From: Granulosicoccus sp.
Lineage (GTDB): Bacteria > Pseudomonadota > Gammaproteobacteria > Granulosicoccales > Granulosicoccaceae
DNA length: 64,000 nucleotides
Assembly: GCA_020627685.1 (NCBI GenBank)
Contig: JAHDGK010000022.1
Location: forward strand, 5,038-69,037
Direction of reading: 5' to 3'
The notes under the pieces are model-generated. The model saw nothing but the letters and a program-made list of their open reading frames with translations, ran no database searches and was not told where the DNA came from. A program made the position numbers and the translations under genes. Positions 16,691-52,987 of the stretch are shown here, piece after piece; positions within the stretch are counted from its first letter, which is position 1, and each line of letters opens with the position of its first letter.

Positions 16691-18406
16691 ATGAAAAAAT
16701 CAGGATTGGTATTAAGTAGGCATCTTCTCGCTATCAAAGCCGTTTGCTGTCTGTTGGTGGCTATGTTTTTTTTCAGCGAGTTCGCTCGGGCAGATAGTGT
16801 TCCGCCTACGGCACCTGGTAGCTTGCAAGGCGTTCGGTATTCATCAACGGCTGGTGAGATATTTTGGTCGCCGGCAAGCGATGACTCCCTGATTGTTGGA
16901 TACCGTGTGATTCGCGACGGTCTTGATTTGGGAATTCGCGATGCGAAAAGTGTTTTCGAGCCCTCGCTCGAACCGGACACGGCGTATCGCTACCGTGTCA
17001 GCGCCATTGATCGATTTGGTAACGAAGGGCCTGCGCTTAGCGTTGATATATCGGCGATTAATGGTCAGCAAAATGTGGGGCAGGCAGATGAGCCTACAAC
17101 ACCTGTAATTCCAGATAGGCCGCAGGAGTTACCCGATTCCTCGGACCTGACACTCTATAGTGACGCAGGTCGCGTGACTTTAACTGAAGGCGATAGCAAC
17201 GGCGTTTCAATAGCATTGTCGCTTCAACGAAATGGCTCTAGCGCGCGTCCCGTGCAATTGTCCTTAGAGTCTGACAACGCCCGCGACCTATACAACCTGC
17301 GTTATGCCTTTTCGCCGTCAACCTTGGGCCGGGGTGAATCTGGTTCGGTTGTTACGTTGCATCTGGACATTGGTGTTGCGCCTTTGTTATTTCATGAACG
17401 ACACTTTCGACTTGTTGCTGATGACGGGGTGTCGCGAACGACACGCTCTTTGACGATTGATGTCTCTCCAACCAGTGCCCCCGATATTTATTTGCTGATC
17501 GGTCAGAGCAATATGGAGGGTTACAGTGAACTTGGCAGTCGCGAGGCCTATGCCGGTGGTATGGACGAGCGTCACCCCAGAATCCAACAGCTAAATGTTC
17601 AGCCCAATAGCCGATCTGTGTTCTATAGCGATAGCATGTTCAGAGATGAACAAAGCAACATATCGTCACCGAGTTTTGTACCGGCAGAAGATCCTTTGCA
17701 TGAGCCACGATTCATCGGCATTGATGGAAAGGAGGCGACGTTTGTCGGCTTGGGCTTAACGTTCGCGAAATCTGCCTTGACCAGCACGACCTCAGAGATT
17801 TATCTGGTACCCGCAGCCTGGGGCGCGACCGGATTCTGTGCCAATTCCAATGGTGATTTGGCATGGAATGCATGGCCTACACCCGCTCAAGCGCACTTAG
17901 GTGGAACTCTCTTGGCCGATCGTGCGCTGACTCGTCTGAATATGACCCTGCGTGAGACAGGTGGTGTGCTGCGCGGAATACTATGGCATCAAGGTGGCGC
18001 TGATTCTAACAATCCGGACTGCGCTAGAGATTATGCGAATAACTTATCTCAGCTGGTTTCCCGATTACGCAGCGACGCCCGACAAGACGGACGGGGTGCC
18101 GATGGGAGGGGGGCGGCAGCCGTCATCCCGTTTGTTGTGGCGACGCAAAGCCGTGGCGATGATGAGCGCGGGCAGTTCTCGGTATTTAACCCGTCCAAAG
18201 TGATTGTTGACGCTGCACAACGCTCGGTAAGTCAGTACATCACTCATTCAGATTTTGTGAATAACGATGATTTAGTACCGTCACAGTATCCTTGCGGCCA
18301 AACGTCGTGTGTTCACTTCGGTGCTGCGGCGTTGCGTGAGCAAGGGCGGAGGTTTTTCGCAGCGTTCAAGCGAATTTGGAGCAATGCAGCTACCTATCAC
18401 TACTAG
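16691..18406 (+). CDS. Secreted SGNH/sialate-O-acetylesterase-like esterase with N-terminal FN3-like domain
   Basis: Signal peptide-like N-terminus; FN3-like VRYSSTAGEIFWSPASDD...YRYRVSAIDRFGNEG; PDIYLLIGQSNMEGYSEL (GQSNM); LWHQGGAD; late HFG. Confidence 0.8.
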   Translation: MKKSGLVLSRHLLAIKAVCCLLVAMFFFSEFARADSVPPTAPGSLQGVRYSSTAGEIFWSPASDDSLIVGYRVIRDGLDLGIRDAKSVFEPSLEPDTAYRYRVSAIDRFGNEGPALSVDISAINGQQNVGQADEPTTPVIPDRPQELPDSSDLTLYSDAGRVTLTEGDSNGVSIALSLQRNGSSARPVQLSLESDNARDLYNLRYAFSPSTLGRGESGSVVTLHLDIGVAPLLFHERHFRLVADDGVSRTTRSLTIDVSPTSAPDIYLLIGQSNMEGYSELGSREAYAGGMDERHPRIQQLNVQPNSRSVFYSDSMFRDEQSNISSPSFVPAEDPLHEPRFIGIDGKEATFVGLGLTFAKSALTSTTSEIYLVPAAWGATGFCANSNGDLAWNAWPTPAQAHLGGTLLADRALTRLNMTLRETGGVLRGILWHQGGADSNNPDCARDYANNLSQLVSRLRSDARQDGRGADGRGAAAVIPFVVATQSRGDDERGQFSVFNPSKVIVDAAQRSVSQYITHSDFVNNDDLVPSQYPCGQTSCVHFGAAALREQGRRFFAAFKRIWSNAATYHY

Positions 18407-38022: not shown

Positions 38023-38493
38023 ACATCGGCGCATATCAATATGCGGAATCCCGTCCTCGAGATAGACATCGGATTCAATAACGAACCCCAGGTCCTTGTA
38101 AAAATCGATGATGGGCTCTTGAGCTGAAAGTACCTGATCGCGGTGCGGGAAGTTTGACTCAAGCTTTGACATCATCTGTTGCATGAGTAATTGTGCAAGC
38201 CCGGTGCCCCGATGGGATTTTGCGACGACTACGCGTCCTATTCGAACCACGCTTTTAGCACCTACATCGGTTGGTTCGCTGGAAGGCATGGCGCGTGCGT
38301 AGGCCACCAATTCTTCTGTACTACCCAGCAGGTGAATGGTATCCGGGTGATTATCGTGGGAGTCCAGTTCGGGATACGCGCATTGCTGCTCAACGACAAA
38401 CACATCAGTGCGTAGTCGCATCAACTGAAACAACTGATCGGTATTCAGCGATTGAAAATGGTGGAACTCCCAATGTACAGGGTCGTTAGTCAT
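37996..38493 (-). CDS. GNAT N-acetyltransferase (ElaA-like)
   Basis: LMRLRTDVFVVEQQCAYPELDSHD, RIGRVVVAKSHRGTGLAQLLM. Confidence 0.88.
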   Translation of the reverse strand: MTNDPVHWEFHHFQSLNTDQLFQLMRLRTDVFVVEQQCAYPELDSHDNHPDTIHLLGSTEELVAYARAMPSSEPTDVGAKSVVRIGRVVVAKSHRGTGLAQLLMQQMMSKLESNFPHRDQVLSAQEPIIDFYKDLGFVIESDVYLEDGIPHIDMRRCLEPSSPHS

Positions 38494-39091
38494 CTATTTT
38501 TCGCACACGAAAGATCATGAATAGAAGGAGTGCGCTGCCGATAATTGCACCGCCGATTGCGCCGTACAGATGAGAGTCCACCACCACCGATCCGCCAGCC
38601 GTTGATTCACTGCCCGGCAGTGGGCCGGAGAATTGTTCCCATGCCAATTTTGCGACGACCAGCGTCAGCAGGGTGGCGGCAGATTTAGGGTATGTGCGTA
38701 AGTCTGCGAGGCATCCGGCAATGATGAGTCCGTGCAAGGTGCCGGAAAAGCCGACATAGGCGCCCACTTCCGGGTTGAAACGCCAGAGACCCAGCCCCAC
38801 TACTAGGCTGGCAAAGATGATGATCAACAGCCAAATTCTTGCTGAGAAGTGCGACCAGACCAAGGCAACAACCAGAGCGAAGCCAGCCATATTCATCCAC
38901 AGATGGCTTTGTCCCAGGTGCACAAAATTACCGGTCAGTAACAGCCACCAATATCCCTGGTCAATCTCGTTACGCTCGAAGCGCAAAACATCGTCGAGGC
39001 CCGCGTATTGCAACGCAATACACAGTAATGCCACGCAGATAGCGAGCACATAGGCAGGCGAACGTAACAGGTTCTTAATGTATTGAATCAT
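38486..39091 (-). CDS. rrtA: Rhombosortase-like intramembrane serine protease
   Basis: Multi-TM; GNFVHLGQSHLWMNMAGFALV, YVGFSGTLHGLIIAG (Ser), VDSHLYGAIGG (His). Confidence 0.8.
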   Translation of the reverse strand: MIQYIKNLLRSPAYVLAICVALLCIALQYAGLDDVLRFERNEIDQGYWWLLLTGNFVHLGQSHLWMNMAGFALVVALVWSHFSARIWLLIIIFASLVVGLGLWRFNPEVGAYVGFSGTLHGLIIAGCLADLRTYPKSAATLLTLVVAKLAWEQFSGPLPGSESTAGGSVVVDSHLYGAIGGAIIGSALLLFMIFRVRKIDD

Positions 39092-39165
39092 TCAGTTGGC
39101 GTCGAGTCATACGGGCGGTGCTATCCTCTTGGCATAGAGATTAACCCTTTGAGAATACGGGAGAT

Positions 39166-39663
39166 ATGACCCTAATGGGCAAACTGGTACAAGAAGTTCG
39201 CGCAACAGCATTCTGCGGTGCGAAAAAACGTTCTGAAAAACAGCGTAACTCGCAAAGTGGTTTCACTCTTATCGAAATCATGGTGGTCGTGGCAATCATA
39301 GCGATACTGGGCGCAACCGTTGTGCCATTGATTATGGATCGCCCGAATGAAGCTCGTGTTGTACGAGCCAAAAATGACATCTCGTCTTATGCGTCGGCCC
39401 TGGAATTATACCGATTGGATAACTTCAACTATCCATCAACCGAGCAAGGTCTCGAAGCGCTGGTCACCAAACCCAGTGGTGATCCTGAGCCCGTAAACTG
39501 GAACCGCAGCGGATATGTAAAAAAGCTCTCTAAAGATCCTTGGGGCCGGGACTACATTTACGAAAGCGAAGATGGAAACTTTGAAATCATCTCGCTGGGC
39601 AGTGACGGCACTGAAGGCGGCGAAGATTTTGATGCCGATATCAGTAATCTAGAAACTAATTAG
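39166..39663 (+). CDS. gspG: Type II secretion major pseudopilin GspG
   Basis: GFTLIEIMVVVAIIAILGATVVP; DPWGRDYIY; SLGSDG. Confidence 0.95.
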   Translation: MTLMGKLVQEVRATAFCGAKKRSEKQRNSQSGFTLIEIMVVVAIIAILGATVVPLIMDRPNEARVVRAKNDISSYASALELYRLDNFNYPSTEQGLEALVTKPSGDPEPVNWNRSGYVKKLSKDPWGRDYIYESEDGNFEIISLGSDGTEGGEDFDADISNLETN

Positions 39664-40232
39664 TGCCCCGTTTATGCCAGCCTGTGTCTCAGCGCTCGAA
39701 AGGCTTTACGCTGATCGAGCTGCTGGTCACTGTCACCATTATTTCAATATTGGTTGGCGCCGTTGTCATCAATATCGATTTTCGCAACGTTGGTAAAATT
39801 GTCCGGGACAATGCACTAAGGCTTGGCCTGCAAATGGATCTGGCTGCAGACCAGGCAGTCTACTCGCGGCAACAGTTTGGCATCAGATTTCATCCCGAGT
39901 CCTACGAGTTTTATATTCTGTCGGTCAGTGATAAAGGCCAACCGGTTTGGGAGATCTTTGAAGACAAGCAACTGCGCTTCAAAGATAACGATATCCCGAC
40001 GGACTACGAAGTGGATATATCCGGTCTGCCCATTATTCTCGAAGAACTGGAAAACGAAGTGGCTGAGGCCACCGAAGAAGATCCGATTAAACCGCACATC
40101 ATCTTTCTGTCAAACGGGGAGATCATGCCGGATTTCCGCATTCGCATAAGCGACAGAGACGGTGAAGCACGTTATGAGGTGGCCACAGGTGATGTACAGC
40201 CTGTTGTTGTAGAAAAATTGGAAGGCTCATGA
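39663..40232 (+). CDS. gspH: Type II secretion minor pseudopilin GspH
   Basis: GFTLIELLVTVTIISILVGAVV; GTG start overlapping gspG stop; operon position. Confidence 0.88.
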   Translation: MPRLCQPVSQRSKGFTLIELLVTVTIISILVGAVVINIDFRNVGKIVRDNALRLGLQMDLAADQAVYSRQQFGIRFHPESYEFYILSVSDKGQPVWEIFEDKQLRFKDNDIPTDYEVDISGLPIILEELENEVAEATEEDPIKPHIIFLSNGEIMPDFRIRISDRDGEARYEVATGDVQPVVVEKLEGS

Positions 40233-40606
40233 AGAGGGCCTGCGGATTCACGTTAATAGAAGTGCTGGTTGCGATGACCATCATAGCGGTGGGTGTTTCT
40301 GCGCTTGTCGGTTCTGCAGGTTCGAGTGCATGGCGTGCAGATTATTTGCGGGAGCGAGAATTTGGTCGTTGGGTGGCCAGCAATGTGTTGACTGAACTTC
40401 AAGTGCTGCCTGCCTGGCCAAGTGTTGGCACTAAGAATACCGAAGTGGAGATGGGCACATTCACCTGGTATGTCCGTACTCGAACACAAGCTGTTTCCGA
40501 TCCTGATCTACGTCGTTTGGATGTAGAAGTACGACGCCAAAAAGATGCGGATAACTACGTGTACGTCGTGACTGGCTTCGTTGGTAATCCTGAGAATCGC
40601 CAATGA
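40229..40606 (+). CDS. gspI: Type II secretion minor pseudopilin GspI
   Basis: GFTLIEVLVAMTIIAVGVSAL; ATGA overlap. Confidence 0.9.
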   Translation: MKRACGFTLIEVLVAMTIIAVGVSALVGSAGSSAWRADYLREREFGRWVASNVLTELQVLPAWPSVGTKNTEVEMGTFTWYVRTRTQAVSDPDLRRLDVEVRRQKDADNYVYVVTGFVGNPENRQ

Positions 40607-41253
40607 CTATCGGGGTAGAAACATCGACGTCCAGGTCCTTGAAAAAGGCTCGACGATCGGATCACGGGTTTACTCTGATCGAATTATTGGTTGCCATGTT
40701 TTTGCTGGCCATTCTGGGTACCGCGGGTTTTCAAATGTTATTTCAGATAACAGCCACCCGTGATCGAATAGATCAACAGTCTCAGCGTTTAAGTGAATTG
40801 CAGAGAACCTTTTACTGGTTAGCTGAGGATGTCACCCAGATTGCAGATCGTACCGTTCGTTCGGCCGTGGATTCTGCGCTCCCACCGTTGCAGTTCAATA
40901 TTCAGGGTGAAAACTTATTTGAGTTCACACGCGCTGGATGGACGAACCCCGCAGCCGATGTATCACCGGTACGTTCCAATCTGCAGCGAGTGGCGTATTC
41001 ACTGGACGATGACAAACTGATTCGCGCCTACTGGTATCACCTCGACCCCATTGATGAAGTTCCGACGCGTCGTCGTCAGATGCTCTCCGGAGTCGAGTCA
41101 CTAACGTTTCGCTTTTTAGACTGTGAAGGTGAGTGGGGGGAGAGTTGGCCTCCATCAGATACCGAAGAACCGTGTTTACCGGCCGCAATCGAGTTTAATT
41201 TTGAATTGAGCGACTACGGTGAAGTTGCTCGCGTCTTTGCGCTACCCCGATGA
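40603..41253 (+). CDS. gspJ: Type II secretion minor pseudopilin GspJ
   Basis: GFTLIELLVAMFLLAILGTAGFQML; ATGA overlap. Confidence 0.9.
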   Translation: MTIGVETSTSRSLKKARRSDHGFTLIELLVAMFLLAILGTAGFQMLFQITATRDRIDQQSQRLSELQRTFYWLAEDVTQIADRTVRSAVDSALPPLQFNIQGENLFEFTRAGWTNPAADVSPVRSNLQRVAYSLDDDKLIRAYWYHLDPIDEVPTRRRQMLSGVESLTFRFLDCEGEWGESWPPSDTEEPCLPAAIEFNFELSDYGEVARVFALPR

Positions 41254-42335
41254 ATAAACGAATCGACAGGTACTCTGGTGCGCAGCGGCAACGTGGGGTT
41301 GCCATCATTACCGCTATTCTGCTGATTGCGATGGGTACGATTACCATGGTTGCAATAAGCAGTCGGCAACAGCTAGACATGCATCGCGAGCGAAATGAAG
41401 GACTTATTCAACAAGCCCGTGCGTTCGGCGTGAGTGGTGAACGTTTTGCAGCGGCGTTGCTCTACCGCGATTATCAGGCCGGCCTTCGTGAAAACACAGA
41501 TTCTTTCGATGACGACTGGGCGCAGACTATTCCACCGGTACCCATCGACAATGCATCCATTCAAGGCTGCATTGTGGATATGCAAGGCCGCTTTAATCTG
41601 AATAATCTGGTGAACTCGGAAGGTGCCAAAGCCGAATTTTATTTTGAGCAGCTAAAGCGCCTGCTCAGCGAGCTCAATATCGATCAGGCAAAAGCCGATG
41701 CTGTGCTTGATTGGGTAGACACAGATATCAACGCCACGATACCCGAGGGCGCTGAAGACGATTACTACAGCGGGCTGACGCCAGGTTACCGAACTGCCAA
41801 TGCACCGTTTGTCAGTGTGTCGGAATTACAGCTTGTGAAAGGGTTCAGCAGTGCTATTAAAGAAGAGACTGAAGACTACGAGTTGTTGCTGCCGCATATC
41901 TCAGCCTTGCCGACTAGCGAAGGTCCGACTGCCATCAACGTCAATACAGCAACGCCTGAAGTGCTTGCATCATTGTCCGATGAGATCAAACCGCTGGCTG
42001 CTGATTTATCACGTTGGGACACGGGGGCATATGAAGACTATCCTGAGTGTGAGGATATTTTCGATTTAACCGCAGATGACGGTCCGGATACCCTTGGCGG
42101 AGATGCGCGCGACTTGGCACCTTACGAGAGTACGCTACTATTTGATCAGCAAGTTGATTCTGGAGATTCTGGCGCTGAAACTGCACCGCCCGGTACCTAC
42201 GACGTTCGTTCCAGGTACTTTCAGGTGCGGATTGACGTAGAAGCCGAAGGAATCAGTTTGTCGCAATACACGTTGTTCGAGCGGAATAACGACGGCAAGA
42301 CGCGTGTACTTTATCGTTCACGCGATACGCTTTAG
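41250..42335 (+). CDS. gspK: Type II secretion minor pseudopilin GspK
   Basis: QRGVAIITAILLIAMGTITMVAI; INVNTATPEVLASL. Confidence 0.92.
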   Translation: MNKRIDRYSGAQRQRGVAIITAILLIAMGTITMVAISSRQQLDMHRERNEGLIQQARAFGVSGERFAAALLYRDYQAGLRENTDSFDDDWAQTIPPVPIDNASIQGCIVDMQGRFNLNNLVNSEGAKAEFYFEQLKRLLSELNIDQAKADAVLDWVDTDINATIPEGAEDDYYSGLTPGYRTANAPFVSVSELQLVKGFSSAIKEETEDYELLLPHISALPTSEGPTAINVNTATPEVLASLSDEIKPLAADLSRWDTGAYEDYPECEDIFDLTADDGPDTLGGDARDLAPYESTLLFDQQVDSGDSGAETAPPGTYDVRSRYFQVRIDVEAEGISLSQYTLFERNNDGKTRVLYRSRDTL

Positions 42336-42352
42336 AGAAACAGGAAATAATC

Positions 42353-43567
42353 GTGTCTAAACACGTCATTATCTATATGCCCCTGGTGGGTGAAGACGCC
42401 GTCCAATGGGCTGTGTCTGATGACAACGGAAAACTGACGTCCAATGTTGAGTATTCAACACTGGATGAGGTAGCTGCAGAAGTTGAGGGGCGGCGGGTAA
42501 CGCTTGTTCTTCCCGCAGACGATGTTTTGCTATCAGAGGCCGTTGTACCGGGTGGTTCTGCAGCGCGGGCCGCGCAGGCGGTGCCTTATGCACTGGAAGA
42601 ACAGGTGGCTGATGATGTGGAGTCCCTGCATTTTGCCTTAGGTAGTAAAGGGGCAGGCGATGCCTATCCGGTTGCTGTGATAAGCCGCGATGTTATGGAT
42701 CAGGTGACGCAGCAATGCGCGGACGCCGGTTTACGACCCACACAGGTGGTGCCTGAAACCTTAAGCATTCCTCAGTTGGATAATCATGGCGATGGTTCAC
42801 AGGTGTGGACAGCGTTGCTCGATCAGGATCAGGTGGTTGTCCGACTAGATGGCAACCAGGGTTTTGCTACCGATCCGGGTATGGCTGGCATCATGCTCGA
42901 CGGTGCACGGCAGGCTTTGGCCGAAGACGAAGATCCGACACTTGTTATTTTCAGCACGCACTCGGCAGCTCAGCTTCCGGTGCCGAATGCTATTGATGTT
43001 GAAATGCGTTCCTGTGAGAGCCGGTTAGCTCTGTTTGCCAGTGGCTTAGCAAACTCTTCGCATATCAATCTGTTACAGGGTGTGTACAACCCGCGGAAAA
43101 ATTTCGATAAAACCTGGAAGCCGTGGCGGGCAACAGCGGCATTGGCCGCTTGTTTGTGTGCTGCTTTGTTTGTCGGTAAATGGTTGGATGTTCGCAAGCT
43201 TAATCAGCAGGAAGCCTATCTGGATGAGCAAATTGCGGCGGCATTTAATCAAGCTCTACCGGGCGCTCGTATGCAACGTCCGAGGCGACAGATTCAATCT
43301 GCTTTGAATCAGTTGGGCGGCGTCAACACGGATGGTTTCACCAACAGGCTCTCGCAAATTGCTTCAAGCCTTGCGACTCAACCCCAGACGACACTCAAAA
43401 CCATCGGCTATAGAAACGGTCGGTTTGATCTGGATTTAAACACCGATGCTGTGCCTACGTTGGATGCCCTGAAATCTGAATTGGCCAAGCGCGGGTCGCT
43501 GGCCATGAGTGTTCAATCGGCCAACCGCGAAAACAACACCGTACGCGGTCGCGTTCGTATCGAGTGA
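42353..43567 (+). CDS. gspL: Type II secretion protein GspL
   Basis: VPYALEEQVADDVESLHFALG; single TM; operon position. Confidence 0.9.
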   Translation: MSKHVIIYMPLVGEDAVQWAVSDDNGKLTSNVEYSTLDEVAAEVEGRRVTLVLPADDVLLSEAVVPGGSAARAAQAVPYALEEQVADDVESLHFALGSKGAGDAYPVAVISRDVMDQVTQQCADAGLRPTQVVPETLSIPQLDNHGDGSQVWTALLDQDQVVVRLDGNQGFATDPGMAGIMLDGARQALAEDEDPTLVIFSTHSAAQLPVPNAIDVEMRSCESRLALFASGLANSSHINLLQGVYNPRKNFDKTWKPWRATAALAACLCAALFVGKWLDVRKLNQQEAYLDEQIAAAFNQALPGARMQRPRRQIQSALNQLGGVNTDGFTNRLSQIASSLATQPQTTLKTIGYRNGRFDLDLNTDAVPTLDALKSELAKRGSLAMSVQSANRENNTVRGRVRIE

Positions 43568-43582
43568 CGGAGCTATAGCGAA

Positions 43583-44053
43583 ATGAAAGAATGGTACTTA
43601 AGGCAGTCACCGCGCGATCGTATGATCGTGGTCGTTGTGTCTGCGCTGACAATCCTTGGGCTTATCTACGCGCTCATCTGGCACCCCATGACGACTAGTC
43701 AGGCAAGGGCGCAGCAAGCGCTGGTGTCCAAATCAGAGACCTTAGAATTCGTGCGACGTGGTGCGGCACAGCTTAAGGGTGCTAATGCAGGCTCTTCGCA
43801 GCGCAAAACCTCTGATAAAGCACCGTATCTGCTGATCGATCAGGTAATTCGTCAAGCCAGTATGGATCCGCCGGAGCGCGTTGAGCCCAGTGGTGCTAAC
43901 GGCGCCCGTGTGCAATACGCCGAAGTTGAATTCGACAAACTCGTTCGTGTGTTGGCCGAGCTGGAATTGTATGGTTTGCAAGTTTCAACCTTAACCATTA
44001 GCCGCAAGAATCAGGGAACCGTGAGTGCCCGTTTCAATATGGAGCGCAGTTAA
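43583..44053 (+). CDS. gspM: Type II secretion protein GspM
   Basis: MKEWYLRQSPRDRMIVVVVSALTILGLIYALIWHP; operon position. Confidence 0.88.
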   Translation: MKEWYLRQSPRDRMIVVVVSALTILGLIYALIWHPMTTSQARAQQALVSKSETLEFVRRGAAQLKGANAGSSQRKTSDKAPYLLIDQVIRQASMDPPERVEPSGANGARVQYAEVEFDKLVRVLAELELYGLQVSTLTISRKNQGTVSARFNMERS

Positions 44054-44826
44054 TGCGTTTTATTGGCTTATTTATTTTGGGGTTCGTTGCTTATCTCGTA
44101 GCAATGGTTGTCCTCTTTCCAGCGGCGCCAGTGGTCGATCGAGTTCGCCCGCAGTTGGGTCCAGTTGCCTTGGAAGGAGTGTCAGGCAAATTGTACAAAG
44201 GACAAATCGCGACGGTACGATCCACTGATGATCTACTTCCGCTCGAGTTTCAGAATGTTGGCTGGGCATTGGCTCCGCAAACCTTGTTAAAAGGCGGTGC
44301 GGGAGCCTCCTTCAGTTTCGACGGATACGGTGGTTCGGGCCAGGGCCTCGCCACACGCGGATGGAATGGCAACGTTTCAGTGAGTGACTTTGACTTCAAT
44401 GCTGAGGCTAAAGCACTTGAGCCTCTGTTGCCGGTACCGATAGCAAGCTTTGGCGGCGAGCTCGTCGGAAATATCGAGCAAATTACGCTCGTTAACAATC
44501 TGTTGACCGAAGCGGAAGGCACGTTAACGTGGAACAACGCCGCTTTAGAGAGCCCGATACCGACCTCTCTTGGCACTGTAAACGTTGATATCAAGCCGCA
44601 GGGCGAGCAAGCGCACGTGATTACGCTTAAAGCCTCTGGCGGCGACGTTGCGATGGATGGCAGTGTCACGCTGAGTTTGAACGGAGATTTCACAGCGAAC
44701 GTGCTATTCACCCCATCACCGTCCGCACCGCAGGCGGTAGTTAATGGTTTGCGCCAGATGGGCCCGGCGGATGGCATTGGCCGGGTGCGTTTTCAGCGAA
44801 AGGGCAATGTTAACCGCCTGATGTGA
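44053..44826 (+). CDS. gspN: Type II secretion protein GspN
   Basis: N-terminal TM, VALEGVSGKLYKGQ, operon position after gspM. Confidence 0.85.
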   Translation: MRFIGLFILGFVAYLVAMVVLFPAAPVVDRVRPQLGPVALEGVSGKLYKGQIATVRSTDDLLPLEFQNVGWALAPQTLLKGGAGASFSFDGYGGSGQGLATRGWNGNVSVSDFDFNAEAKALEPLLPVPIASFGGELVGNIEQITLVNNLLTEAEGTLTWNNAALESPIPTSLGTVNVDIKPQGEQAHVITLKASGGDVAMDGSVTLSLNGDFTANVLFTPSPSAPQAVVNGLRQMGPADGIGRVRFQRKGNVNRLM

Positions 44827-48725: not shown

Positions 48726-51305
48726 ATGAAGCAATCAGAACATTTTATATCGCGCATTATGATGCCTGTAAAAATAATGCCGATAGCAGCGCTGGCACTT
48801 TCAAGCAGCGTTGTTTTTGCACAGGACCTTGCGAGCCCGGACTCGCTAAGCTACGAGGTATATTCTCGCACCACCGCAGAACTTTTCTGGCAGCGTTCCG
48901 ACATGCCTGGCTTAAGTTATGAAGTACTACGCGACGGACAGCTGCTCGCCACTACCGACGGTGTTAGCTTTGTTGATAAGTCTTTAAGTCGTGGTCCAAC
49001 GTACACGTATGAGATCATTGCGGTGGATGCGGATGGCGTTCGATCTGCGCCTTCATCGGTCAGTTTTTCGTTGGGTGAAAGTGATTCCGGTAGCGTAGAG
49101 CCCGCGCCCGAGACGCCTGTCGAATTCGGTGCGCCTACCGGTTTACGGGCCGATATTTATTCCTCTCGTTCGGCGGAAATTTTCTGGGATCGTTCGTCTC
49201 AATTTGGTTTGACTTACGATGTCTCGAAAGACGGCTCGTTGCTGGAGACAACGAATGGCGTTAGCTATTTCGCTCGCAACTTAGCGTCAGGACAAGAACA
49301 TACATTTCAAGTTGTCGCGGTTGATCTTGAGGGAAACCAATCGGCACCGTCGGTCGTGACATTTACGATGCCTGGGTCCTCCACGCCCACGACGCCCGGA
49401 CCTGTCGATGACGACCCGCTAGCGGGTAGCGTGTCGGCCCCCACCGGTGTACGCGCCTCAGTCTATTCATCTCGCTCGGCAGAGATATTCTGGGACAGGG
49501 CAACCACACCGGGATTGAGCTACGAGCTTTCCAGAGACAACGTGCCATTGACGACCACCGATGGCGTCAGCTTTTATGACGATGAATTGTCTCCCGGCAG
49601 TACGTATCTGTTCGAGCTCGTCGCTATCAACTCTGCGGGCAATCGTTCTACACCAGCCTCCATCACGGTAAGCACCTCAGGAGGTTCTGTTCCTGACAGC
49701 CCTTCAAACAATGAAACAGCTGCGGCAATTCAGGAGCCGGATGGTTACTTTGATCAAAATGGTTATGGAACCGTTGATGTCGTGCGACTCGATGTTCGTA
49801 CGGTCACAACGCCTGGCGTGTGTAATGCTGATGATGAGTCAGGTTGTACGTTGGACGATGTGAAAGCCGATATCGATGGAAACGATGATTTTACCGTTGA
49901 CATTGCTATTCACTTTCAAGGTGATGATTTGCCAGACGATGGTTCGATCAACAATGCAGAGCTGAGACAGCGTGGTGGCTTCACACGTTTAGCGCCTCAA
50001 AAATCGTTTCGCATAAAGCTTGATAGCAAGGACGAGTTGTGGCGAGGTGAGCGACGTTTGCAGCTCAACAAAATGCCCTACGATCAATCGCGTATTAGAA
50101 ACAAATTGTCGTTTGATCTCATGCAGGACATCCCGCATCTGCCGAGTCTGAAAACACAGTTCGTTAACTTGTGGATTGATGATGGTGCTGGCCCTGAAGA
50201 CTACGGGCTGTTCACGCATGCAGAATACGTCGGTAAAGAGTACCTGGTTAATCGTGGGTGGGATTCAGACAATAACATCTACAAAATAGAAGAATTTGTT
50301 TTTGCTCTAAGTGATCTTGAGTATCTTGCAGTTGATAGTGATGGTGCACCATTAGACGACGATCGTTTTGAAACTCGACTCGACCCAAAACGGGGAGACG
50401 ATCACCGAAAAGTCATTGAGATGATTCAGGCGGTGAACGATAACGAACGATCGTTTGATTCCATCCTTGAGCAATACTTTGATAAAGACAACGTTCTTGC
50501 CTGGGTTACGGTAAATTTTCTATTGCATCAAATGGATGCGGTGACACACAACTTCTACCTCTACAACCCGGTGGGTACAGATAAATTCTATTTCCTACCC
50601 TGGGACTATGATGGAACGTTTGCTGTAGAGCAAAAGCCTGCTAACAGTCTTGAGACCAGTGAGCTGTTTCGCCGTCTTTACTATGGCTTCTCTAAGGGGC
50701 GCGCCAGTAATTTTCTTAATCGATATTACCGTCAGCCCGGTATCTACCAGCAAATTGTGGCAAGGGCCAACGAGCTTAGAAACAACTATCTAACCGATAG
50801 CACGATTTCTGATCTTGCCCGACAGTATTCGGAAGTGATCAGTGAATACGCTGGCCGTATGCCAGACATCGAGCATAACTTTGCTTACGATAAGAGCAAC
50901 AGTCGTGACTTTGCCAGCCATGTTGCCGAGAACCATGCTGTGTTACTGAACTACGGTATACCGTTCCCACCGAAGTTAAGAGACGTCGAGCAATCGGGAG
51001 ATTCACTGAGATTTCGCTGGAGGGCTGCCCATGACATGGCAGGTAATAGCTTAAGCTATGAACTTGAAATTTCTTCTTCGCCGGAATTTGGTAGCGATGA
51101 TCAGCTGCTGAGTTTAACCGGTTTGTCGGAGAGTGACGGAGACGGCTACTTTATCGATGCAAGTCAGATTGGTTCGGGTACTCGATATGCCAGACTCATC
51201 GCCCGATCATCGTCAAATCCTGATGAGTTCTGGCAGATAGCCAGCAACCGACCGGTTATCGATGGGGAGATGAGAGTGGGTGTTGTGGAATTCACATCAC
51301 CCTAG
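48726..51305 (+). CDS. Secreted protein with three FN3-like repeats and a CotH-type kinase domain
   Basis: Signal peptide; three ~80-aa SRSAEIFWDR repeats; CotH-like FRIKLDSKDELWRGERRLQLNKMPYDQSRIRNKLSFDLM...NLWIDD...YGLFTHAEYV...FLPWDYDGTF. Confidence 0.85.
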   Translation: MKQSEHFISRIMMPVKIMPIAALALSSSVVFAQDLASPDSLSYEVYSRTTAELFWQRSDMPGLSYEVLRDGQLLATTDGVSFVDKSLSRGPTYTYEIIAVDADGVRSAPSSVSFSLGESDSGSVEPAPETPVEFGAPTGLRADIYSSRSAEIFWDRSSQFGLTYDVSKDGSLLETTNGVSYFARNLASGQEHTFQVVAVDLEGNQSAPSVVTFTMPGSSTPTTPGPVDDDPLAGSVSAPTGVRASVYSSRSAEIFWDRATTPGLSYELSRDNVPLTTTDGVSFYDDELSPGSTYLFELVAINSAGNRSTPASITVSTSGGSVPDSPSNNETAAAIQEPDGYFDQNGYGTVDVVRLDVRTVTTPGVCNADDESGCTLDDVKADIDGNDDFTVDIAIHFQGDDLPDDGSINNAELRQRGGFTRLAPQKSFRIKLDSKDELWRGERRLQLNKMPYDQSRIRNKLSFDLMQDIPHLPSLKTQFVNLWIDDGAGPEDYGLFTHAEYVGKEYLVNRGWDSDNNIYKIEEFVFALSDLEYLAVDSDGAPLDDDRFETRLDPKRGDDHRKVIEMIQAVNDNERSFDSILEQYFDKDNVLAWVTVNFLLHQMDAVTHNFYLYNPVGTDKFYFLPWDYDGTFAVEQKPANSLETSELFRRLYYGFSKGRASNFLNRYYRQPGIYQQIVARANELRNNYLTDSTISDLARQYSEVISEYAGRMPDIEHNFAYDKSNSRDFASHVAENHAVLLNYGIPFPPKLRDVEQSGDSLRFRWRAAHDMAGNSLSYELEISSSPEFGSDDQLLSLTGLSESDGDGYFIDASQIGSGTRYARLIARSSSNPDEFWQIASNRPVIDGEMRVGVVEFTSP

Positions 51306-51331: not shown

Positions 51332-52987
51332 CTACAAGCACGGGTTTGGAATGGAATCGAAACCCGGTGCTTCTCTCATGAGCTCGAACCAGTCGCCCGA
51401 GGCTCTGGGTCCGCCGAGCAGTTCAGAGCATTGTCTATTAATCCAAATGCTTCCCCATTGTCCGTCGTTGTCCCGTGCAATCCATCGAAACTCCTCTTTG
51501 TCGGTGCGTGAGAAAACATAGCCGATGTCGTTGAATCTGCCGGGAGACGACTCTTCTGCAGATCCGGTCAGGATAGGGCAAGGGTTTTCAATGGCATCGA
51601 AGGCAGGTGCTTGTGCAGACAGTGTTTCCCAGTTACCGGACACAACAGCCCCACCCATGTAGTTTGCGCAGGTCTCATCTATCCAAACACTTCCCCATCG
51701 ACCGTCTGTCGTTTTATCTATCCAGCGGTATTCGGAAGTATCGGTACGTGAGAAAACATAACCACCGTCTCTGGAATCGGTGACTGCTGATTCAGCATCA
51801 TCAGAGCTTGTAGTCTGAACATCACACGGGCTTTCAATGTTATTGCTGGAAGGTGCCAGCGCAATGAGTGTATTCCAGTCACCGGATGCCGCCGGCCCTC
51901 CTAAGGATTCTGCACAGTTGCTATCGATCCATGTGCTGGCGAGTTGTCCTTCAGCATCGAAATCAATCCAACGATATTCGTCTACGTCGGTGCGGGAAAA
52001 TACAAATTCGCTATCAGGTTCTGTGGGGGATAGTTGGCTTACGTCCTGGTTAACTGCGGCACCTAAAGTCAGTGTAAAGGAGTCCGGGATAGCGCCGTCA
52101 ATCGCTTTGAAATAGCAGTCTGCTGTCGCAATCTCGAACGTGCAGAAAAGGGCGCCATGAGTCGCACCCTGTGACGCGGTGTAGATTGATGCAAACCAGT
52201 CACCGCCGTGCTCTTGTGGAACAACATCCCGACCGCCGAGACCTGAAACAAAGGCAAACGATTGCCCCGGTTTTAATGTCATATTGCTGCTTTTACTGAC
52301 GACAGTTTTTTCGCTGAAATTACTCAATAGGTGAGTGCGCGAATAGGCATGAGCATGAGCCATGGCGATAATGGCTCCAGCGTCAAGACAGGCGTCGTAA
52401 ATTTCCCAGCCGGTGCTGTTGCCTTTACTGGCGGGTTGCATATCTCTCTGGTTTTTATGCCAGCTACAAATGCGCCAACGAAGGTTAGAGGTGAGTGACG
52501 AATAGGATGTCCGAATGTACTCGGCATAATTATCATCAGGATTCACACCCGCCACCTCTGTAATACCGGAGGCAACCTGCACGACGTCGATGTTGGCGAA
52601 CTGACAAAGTGCCTTAACGCCTGTGTCGCCGATACAATCCAGCGCAGGATTTCGATCAATACGTTCCTGAATCAGTCGCTTATAAGTGGGCCATTCAAAG
52701 TTTTCGTGGTTGCCTACGACCGTTAAAACGGGGAAGTCTTTACCTAAAGCGTTGGTGATGTTTGCATCCCAGGTTTTAGCAGCATTTGCGGCATACCCAA
52801 GATCACCCTGAATCAAGAGAAGATCAGTGTCTTCGTTAGCAACCAGTGTTAGCACTGCACGGCTATTGCTGTTATTACCCTGATCTCCAATAAACGCAAC
52901 CTTGACGCCGGCGTTAACGTTGGAAATCACTCCTATGGAGGTTGCTGCAAGCAGCAAAGCCGTGGCCAGTACGTTTCTGTGTTTCAA
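51332..52987 (-). CDS. Secreted metallophosphoesterase with three C-terminal tandem repeats
   Basis: VAFIGDQGNNSNS, LLIQGDLGYAANA, VVGNHENFEWP, AHAHAYSR; TTG start at 52987 preceded by GAGGAGG; three C-terminal VFSRTDxxEYRWI repeats. Confidence 0.85.
   Translation of the reverse strand: MKHRNVLATALLLAATSIGVISNVNAGVKVAFIGDQGNNSNSRAVLTLVANEDTDLLLIQGDLGYAANAAKTWDANITNALGKDFPVLTVVGNHENFEWPTYKRLIQERIDRNPALDCIGDTGVKALCQFANIDVVQVASGITEVAGVNPDDNYAEYIRTSYSSLTSNLRWRICSWHKNQRDMQPASKGNSTGWEIYDACLDAGAIIAMAHAHAYSRTHLLSNFSEKTVVSKSSNMTLKPGQSFAFVSGLGGRDVVPQEHGGDWFASIYTASQGATHGALFCTFEIATADCYFKAIDGAIPDSFTLTLGAAVNQDVSQLSPTEPDSEFVFSRTDVDEYRWIDFDAEGQLASTWIDSNCAESLGGPAASGDWNTLIALAPSSNNIESPCDVQTTSSDDAESAVTDSRDGGYVFSRTDTSEYRWIDKTTDGRWGSVWIDETCANYMGGAVVSGNWETLSAQAPAFDAIENPCPILTGSAEESSPGRFNDIGYVFSRTDKEEFRWIARDNDGQWGSIWINRQCSELLGGPRASGDWFELMREAPGFDSIPNPCL
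51335..52009 (-). repeat. Three protein-level tandem repeats, coding for ~63-65 aa each
   Basis: Copies at ~51818-52009, ~51572-51763, 51335-51523; pattern VFSRTDxxE(Y/F)RWIxxxxxGxxxSxWIxxxCxxxxGGxxxSGxWxxLxxxAPxxxxIxxPC. Confidence 0.85.

Follow-up and report, generated by a model that had tools for sequence, protein, structure and literature searches.

A mobile C-terminal repeat of secreted enzymes in Granulosicoccaceae, a candidate retention module

A putative secreted phosphatase of Granulosicoccus sp. ends in three copies of a small cysteine-containing repeat, and it is not obvious from any named domain what such an array does for the enzyme. We identified the gene in a 64,000-nucleotide stretch of one contig, which we refer to as the window, and compared the enzyme and its repeats with sequence and structure libraries and with related proteins in other genomes. 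The features discussed here are collected in Table 1. C-terminal accessory or anchoring modules are a known kind of domain, and the question is whether this repeat is one of them.

The phosphatase and its three repeats

The TTG at 52987 is likely the start of the gene, as AGGAGG is found five bases upstream; the reading frame runs on the minus strand to a stop at 51332. Residues 1-26 read as a typical signal peptide and contain no lipobox. The metallophosphoesterase family PF00149 is the sole Pfam name on the 551-residue protein (E=4.3e-6, which passes the cut-off). The domain keeps the GDxG, GDxxY, GNHE, H177 and HxH motifs, and residues D35, D62, Y65, N93, H94, H177, H211 and H213 are invariant in an alignment of 12 homologues that takes in sequences from Planctomycetota, Myxococcota and other Gammaproteobacteria (551-residue numbering).

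GDxxY is a motif of the purple acid phosphatases. The best match to the protein in a profile search against the PDB is the purple acid phosphatase 3zk4 (E=2.2e-6), and Foldseek returns the same structure at E=1.4e-9, with purple acid phosphatases or phytase making up all of the first 30 matches. The catalytic part is therefore similar to solved purple acid phosphatases (PF00149; lupin PPD1, PDB 3zk4) and shares their metal-ligand motifs (D, GDxxY, GNH, H, HxH). However, unlike them it is bacterial, and structural alignments give just 10-17% identity. The catalytic domain is purple-acid-phosphatase-like, with a putative phosphatase activity and a putative Fe(III)-M(II) centre. An earlier note on this DNA had called the enzyme a calcineurin-like phosphoesterase; purple-acid-phosphatase-like is the more precise name.

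Table 1. Features of the phosphatase gene and of the export and sorting genes in the window
Feature	Position	Strand	Basis or remark
Phosphatase gene with three C-terminal repeats	51332..52987	-	ORF; 551 aa, TTG start
Predicted signal peptide MKHRNVLATALLLAATSIGVISNVNA	52910..52987	-	Read from sequence
Metallophosphoesterase domain (ends approximate)	52060..52909	-	Pfam PF00149
Repeat 1, 61 aa	51824..52006	-	In the full-length model, order of strands and helices matches that of the repeat modelled alone
Linker 1, Ser/Thr/Asp-rich, predicted flexible	51761..51823	-	Residues 390-406 below pLDDT 50
Repeat 2, 61 aa	51578..51760	-	Modelled alone, pLDDT 97.4
Linker 2, predicted flexible	51521..51577	-	Residues 472-486 below pLDDT 50
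Repeat 3, 61 aa	51338..51520	-	Ends one residue ahead of the stop codon
Rhombosortase	38486..39091	-	TIGR03902, E=1.3e-43, 148.7 bits vs cut-off 84
Part of type II secretion operon, gspG-H-(I)-J-K-L-(M)-N	39166..44826	+	NCBIfam and position

The three repeats are about 54% identical to one another and are separated by linkers of 19-21 residues, with start-to-start spacings of 240 and 246 nt. With the middle repeat as query, a search of the genome recovers the other two copies at E = 4.2e-21 and 7.0e-19 and, beyond these, nothing better than E = 0.049, which excludes a chance origin of the similarity. The earlier note had described three tandem cysteine-containing copies of about 63-65 residues; the tandem copies are confirmed, and each is 61 residues long. 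Its repeat pattern holds, with the two cysteines, the tryptophan and the Gly-Gly; the Gly-Gly varies slightly, its second glycine being present in 50 of 55 related copies.

A compact domain family of Granulosicoccaceae

Eleven positions (R5, D7, R12, W13, G36, G42, W44, L47, P52, P60 and C61) never vary among the 55 copies, each of which has exactly two cysteines. In both copies of one protein (L051) the helix cysteine is shifted three residues later, equal to one helical turn, and one extra residue precedes the last cysteine. That the two cysteines occur together and shift together is an argument for a disulphide, and one disulphide probably closes the repeat by joining its first helix to the C-terminus.

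The charged and aromatic residues R5, D7, E10, R12, W13 and W44 are more conserved than the remaining repeat positions. They may form a ligand site or a salt-bridge network in the core; either would require them. The repeats might also bind nothing and simply make the enzyme more stable or protect its C-terminus against proteolysis, as their compact, repetitive and probably disulphide-bearing nature would allow. However, these six residues are strongly conserved on unrelated, flexibly linked enzymes, and homologous catalytic domains exist without the repeats. We regard a purely structural or protective tail as improbable.

Modelled alone with AlphaFold2, a single repeat gives a mean pLDDT of 97.4 and a pTM of 0.82, with strands at residues 2-5, 10-16 and 22-27, a helix at 29-34, a strand at 38-42 and a second helix at 44-50. 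In the full-length model the repeats look like three beads with an identical order of elements, and the linkers between them fall below pLDDT 50. Foldseek finds no significant fold for the repeat model in the PDB (best E=0.58, with nothing under 0.001) or in BFVD (best E=0.30).

Sequence searches give the same picture. No Pfam family matches the repeat above its cut-off (best E=0.16, in one of 11 copies), NCBIfam has no match to the repeat or to the whole protein, and neither the whole protein nor an 11-sequence repeat profile finds a PDB sequence matching the repeat below E=0.21. The Pfam matches under the cut-offs (CotH at E=0.16, RACo_linker, TILa, tachylectin and DUF346) differ between copies, and the PDB sequence matches to the repeat at E=0.2 and above cover fragments; both sets were rejected. 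The repeat is a real, compact domain family with no counterpart in the three libraries used for these searches, namely Pfam, NCBIfam and the PDB sequences. The first reading had recognised no named domain, and this is borne out: no confident, characterised family appeared in these libraries, and the single-repeat model is compact and confident where disorder might have been predicted.

The gene convergent with the phosphatase gene (48726-51305, plus strand) encodes a CotH-like protein with three FN3-type repeats. Their wording (VYSRTTAELFW) is similar to that of the repeat, but they are a different domain and were dropped. The FN3 region of this protein has an NCBIfam match to the exoglucanase CbhB that is far under the cut-off, and a sialate-O-acetylesterase-like protein elsewhere in the window (16691-18406) has an FN3 domain similar to those of the CotH-like protein.

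Strong profile matches to the repeat occur in 15 of 36 Granulosicoccaceae genomes. In evenly drawn samples of 369 genomes from the class and 399 from the phylum, only members of the same genus matched, apart from one match in genome G739 (E=8e-4, 33 residues) that lies inside an antirestriction-like protein (WITAKAANKLGG). We rejected this match as chance, given its context and its being the single borderline match in 399 genomes. Across the two samples, about 760 other Pseudomonadota yielded no copy of the repeat. Nor was it found in the viral contigs, phages and plasmids searched, or in samples of the phyla of the Planctomycetota and Myxococcota homologues, for which there was no positive control. 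Its absence outside Granulosicoccaceae is fairly well sampled in Pseudomonadota and weakly tested elsewhere.

Within the family the repeat is not confined to phosphatases. The earlier note had asked which other enzymes carry it, and the tally is at least six further protein types, named by reading where Pfam gave no match. The repeat forms the C-terminal end of an M35 metallopeptidase that also has PPC-like domains (L045; PF14521 E=8e-40), of the alpha/beta hydrolase L046, of L051, which combines Collagen_bind_2 with a glycosidase-like body, of L050, which has a CBM-like front, and of a beta-helix-like protein with no Pfam match (L056). Two proteins with CARDB-like domains (L048 and L049) have a C-terminal repeat plus one internal copy between other domains. 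Two of the carrier types are non-catalytic. The carriers have two to four copies on flexible linkers, and in every complete protein the last repeat lies 0-4 residues from the C-terminus. The repeat is attached to these secreted enzymes as a unit that folds on its own, and we describe it as a lineage-specific mobile domain of 56-62 residues that is predicted to consist of three strands, a helix, a strand and a helix.

A tree of the repeats, built on 61 columns, does not resolve deep relations. However, copies 1 and 2 of the beta-helix-like protein L056 group with copies 1 and 2, respectively, of the phosphatases L061 and L062 (support 95/72 and 99/93). From this copy-by-copy grouping the two-repeat tail seems to have moved as one cassette between the phosphatases and L056.

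Repeats in place of membrane anchors

Reading the repeat-less phosphatase homologues of Granulosicoccaceae prompted a comparison of anchors, which was then extended to the M35 and beta-helix-like families, each with one repeat-bearing protein. A tail was called GlyGly-CTERM-like by a rule that asks for a Gly/Ser stretch, a membrane helix and a basic end; 3 of 156 unrelated ORFs satisfy it. Among seven repeat-less phosphatase homologues with complete ends, four have such a tail, two have a lipobox and one has no clear anchor. None of the 13 repeat-bearing phosphatases has either (Fisher p=1.8e-4 against the repeat-less proteins; family members are not independent, so that p is too small and overstates the difference). 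The name GlyGly-CTERM is a pattern call here, since none of four phosphatase tails compared with NCBIfam passed the cut-off of 15.5 bits (12.0 and 11.1 bits for two, no match for the others).

The other two families behave in the same way. The tail is found by rule in 12 of 15 repeat-less M35 homologues (13 by eye) and not in the one repeat-bearing M35 protein. Of the beta-helix-like homologues, the three that lack the repeat comprise two with lipoboxes (one called by rule, the other by eye) and one with an N-terminal membrane segment by eye, whereas the repeat-bearing protein has a plain signal peptide and no anchor. With the three families pooled, 22 of 25 repeat-less proteins are anchored (19 by the strict rules) compared with none of 15 repeat-bearing ones. 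The repeat-less homologues without a clear anchor are L098, L123 and L125. GlyGly-CTERM (TIGR03501) features are absent from all repeat-bearing proteins with complete ends.

In a tree of the catalytic domains the state must have changed at least twice to agree with the well-supported branches, and four times on the best tree. Two lipobox homologues (L091 and L092) sit within a clade of repeat-bearing phosphatases (support 98/96), which indicates that one tether replaced another. Both versions of one enzyme family occur within single genomes, namely the phosphatase in G023 and G014 and the M35 peptidase in G006.

The GlyGly-CTERM/rhombosortase system (TIGR03501/TIGR03902) is likewise a mobile C-terminal tail on unrelated secreted enzymes (PMC3237569, PMC13393428), and its families are known to have homologues with other tails (PMC3237569). 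The tail and the repeat occupy the same position in the same enzyme families. However, the repeats, two to four per protein, are folded domains with no membrane helix or basic end, so that rhombosortase has nothing to cleave. A limited literature search found no published description of the domain or of its exchange with GlyGly-CTERM and lipid anchors.

The position of the repeat raises the alternative that it is a folded C-terminal signal for a secretion or surface-attachment machine and binds no ligand. It ends the protein, within 0-4 residues of the C-terminus, on seven scaffolds, and it stands in place of GlyGly-CTERM tails. The C-terminal domains of type IX secretion substrates are signals of this kind; type IX systems are characteristic of Bacteroidota. 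However, two to four copies are present although one signal would suffice, L048 and L049 have one copy between other domains, no residues past the last cysteine are conserved (55 copies), and no dedicated machine was found in a search that covered rhombosortase. An export or sorting signal is unlikely on this evidence.

Several phosphatase homologues have tails or insertions of other kinds. A repeat-less paralogue (L090:851-2176, minus strand) directly adjoins the repeat-bearing gene in G023 and has an in-frame Ser-Asp run within its catalytic domain. In another homologue (L097:3-1775, minus strand) a long coiled-coil-like EAEAQAQRE repeat tail replaces the module, and the contig ends inside this tail. 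In a third (L095:1270-3543, minus strand), thrombospondin type 3-like Asp-rich repeats precede a GlyGly-CTERM-like tail. Granulosicoccaceae commonly have M35 (aspzincin-like) peptidases that end in GlyGly-CTERM-like tails (L115-L129, including L122 in this organism's own genome, C109:25500-31000).

Candidate function and export route

The reading we favour, at about even confidence, is that the repeat is a non-covalent retention module at the C-terminus, with a shared extracellular polymer as its ligand. The enzyme would be exported by Sec and probably then by type II secretion, and the repeats would tether it through avidity to a polymer that all carriers share, either the cell's own surface or matrix polysaccharide or an algal polymer on which the cell lives. 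The repeats would thereby take the role that GlyGly-CTERM processing, a lipid anchor or a membrane segment plays in homologues. What was observed is the repeats themselves, their spread over unrelated carriers, their place at the C-terminus, the conserved cysteines and the swapping with anchors; the disulphide, the export route and the polymer binding are the inferred parts of this reading. The earlier idea of a small, disulphide-stabilised binding or anchoring module gains support from the compact fold and the two cysteines in every copy, with binding remaining putative, and it also fits the mobility between unrelated secreted proteins and the replacement of anchors. However, the loss of anchors could equally yield a freely released enzyme, and among PDB and BFVD folds the repeat model matches no known binding module significantly.

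Release is part of a related possibility, in which the repeats bind the polymer that the enzymes degrade, such as an algal cell wall. Carbohydrate-binding modules are typically small, contain aromatic residues and occur in tandem on linkers, and the repeats are of this form. Like such modules (e.g. CBM96, PF24517) they are exchanged between enzymes. Kelp is a habitat of Granulosicoccus, and alginate lyase genes are present in its family (PMC9238374). The phosphatase homologue from Sorangium carries an N-terminal CBM96 (PF24517 E=1.5e-15) and, like the other phosphatase homologues from outside Granulosicoccaceae, lacks the repeats; the CBM96 sits at the opposite end of the protein from the repeat. 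However, the repeat has no sequence similarity or significant fold similarity to any carbohydrate-binding module. The carriers should act on phosphoesters, peptides, esters and glycans, which makes a substrate-specific module less natural, and the replacement of cell anchors points to retention. Substrate targeting is fairly unlikely as a separate explanation; it overlaps with retention if the polymer is the shared one.

It is also conceivable, but distinctly doubtful, that the repeat is the recognition part of a so far undescribed, lineage-specific sorting route for proteins, a folded C-terminal tag parallel to rhombosortase and swapped as a cassette. If this were true, a folded tag would place the secreted enzymes of Granulosicoccaceae on the cell surface or in the matrix. 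The repeat combines a confident predicted fold unlike anything solved with at least seven protein types within a single marine family, some members of which are abundant on kelp surfaces. The exchange of the repeat with anchors is a testable claim on how these bacteria keep secreted enzymes close, and the repeat could serve as a small tag, transferable between enzymes, that keeps them on a polymer.

The window itself contains candidate sorting and export genes. GspG, J, K and L pass their NCBIfam cut-offs, GspH scores 79.1 against 80, GspN is weak, and I and M are inferred from position. The gsp operon is likely the export route of the repeat-bearing enzymes, as far as this can be inferred, and the rhombosortase appears to be the protease of the anchoring route that homologues use instead of repeats. 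Among GlyGly-CTERM proteins are type II substrates that stay at the surface (PMC13393428), and in Acinetobacter lipoproteins depend on GspN to arrive there via type II secretion (PMC12802150); both of the replaced anchors can therefore share one export route. The rhombosortase gene adjoins the gspG-N operon in divergent orientation (38486-44826), and this adjacency suggests a functional coupling of surface sorting and export.
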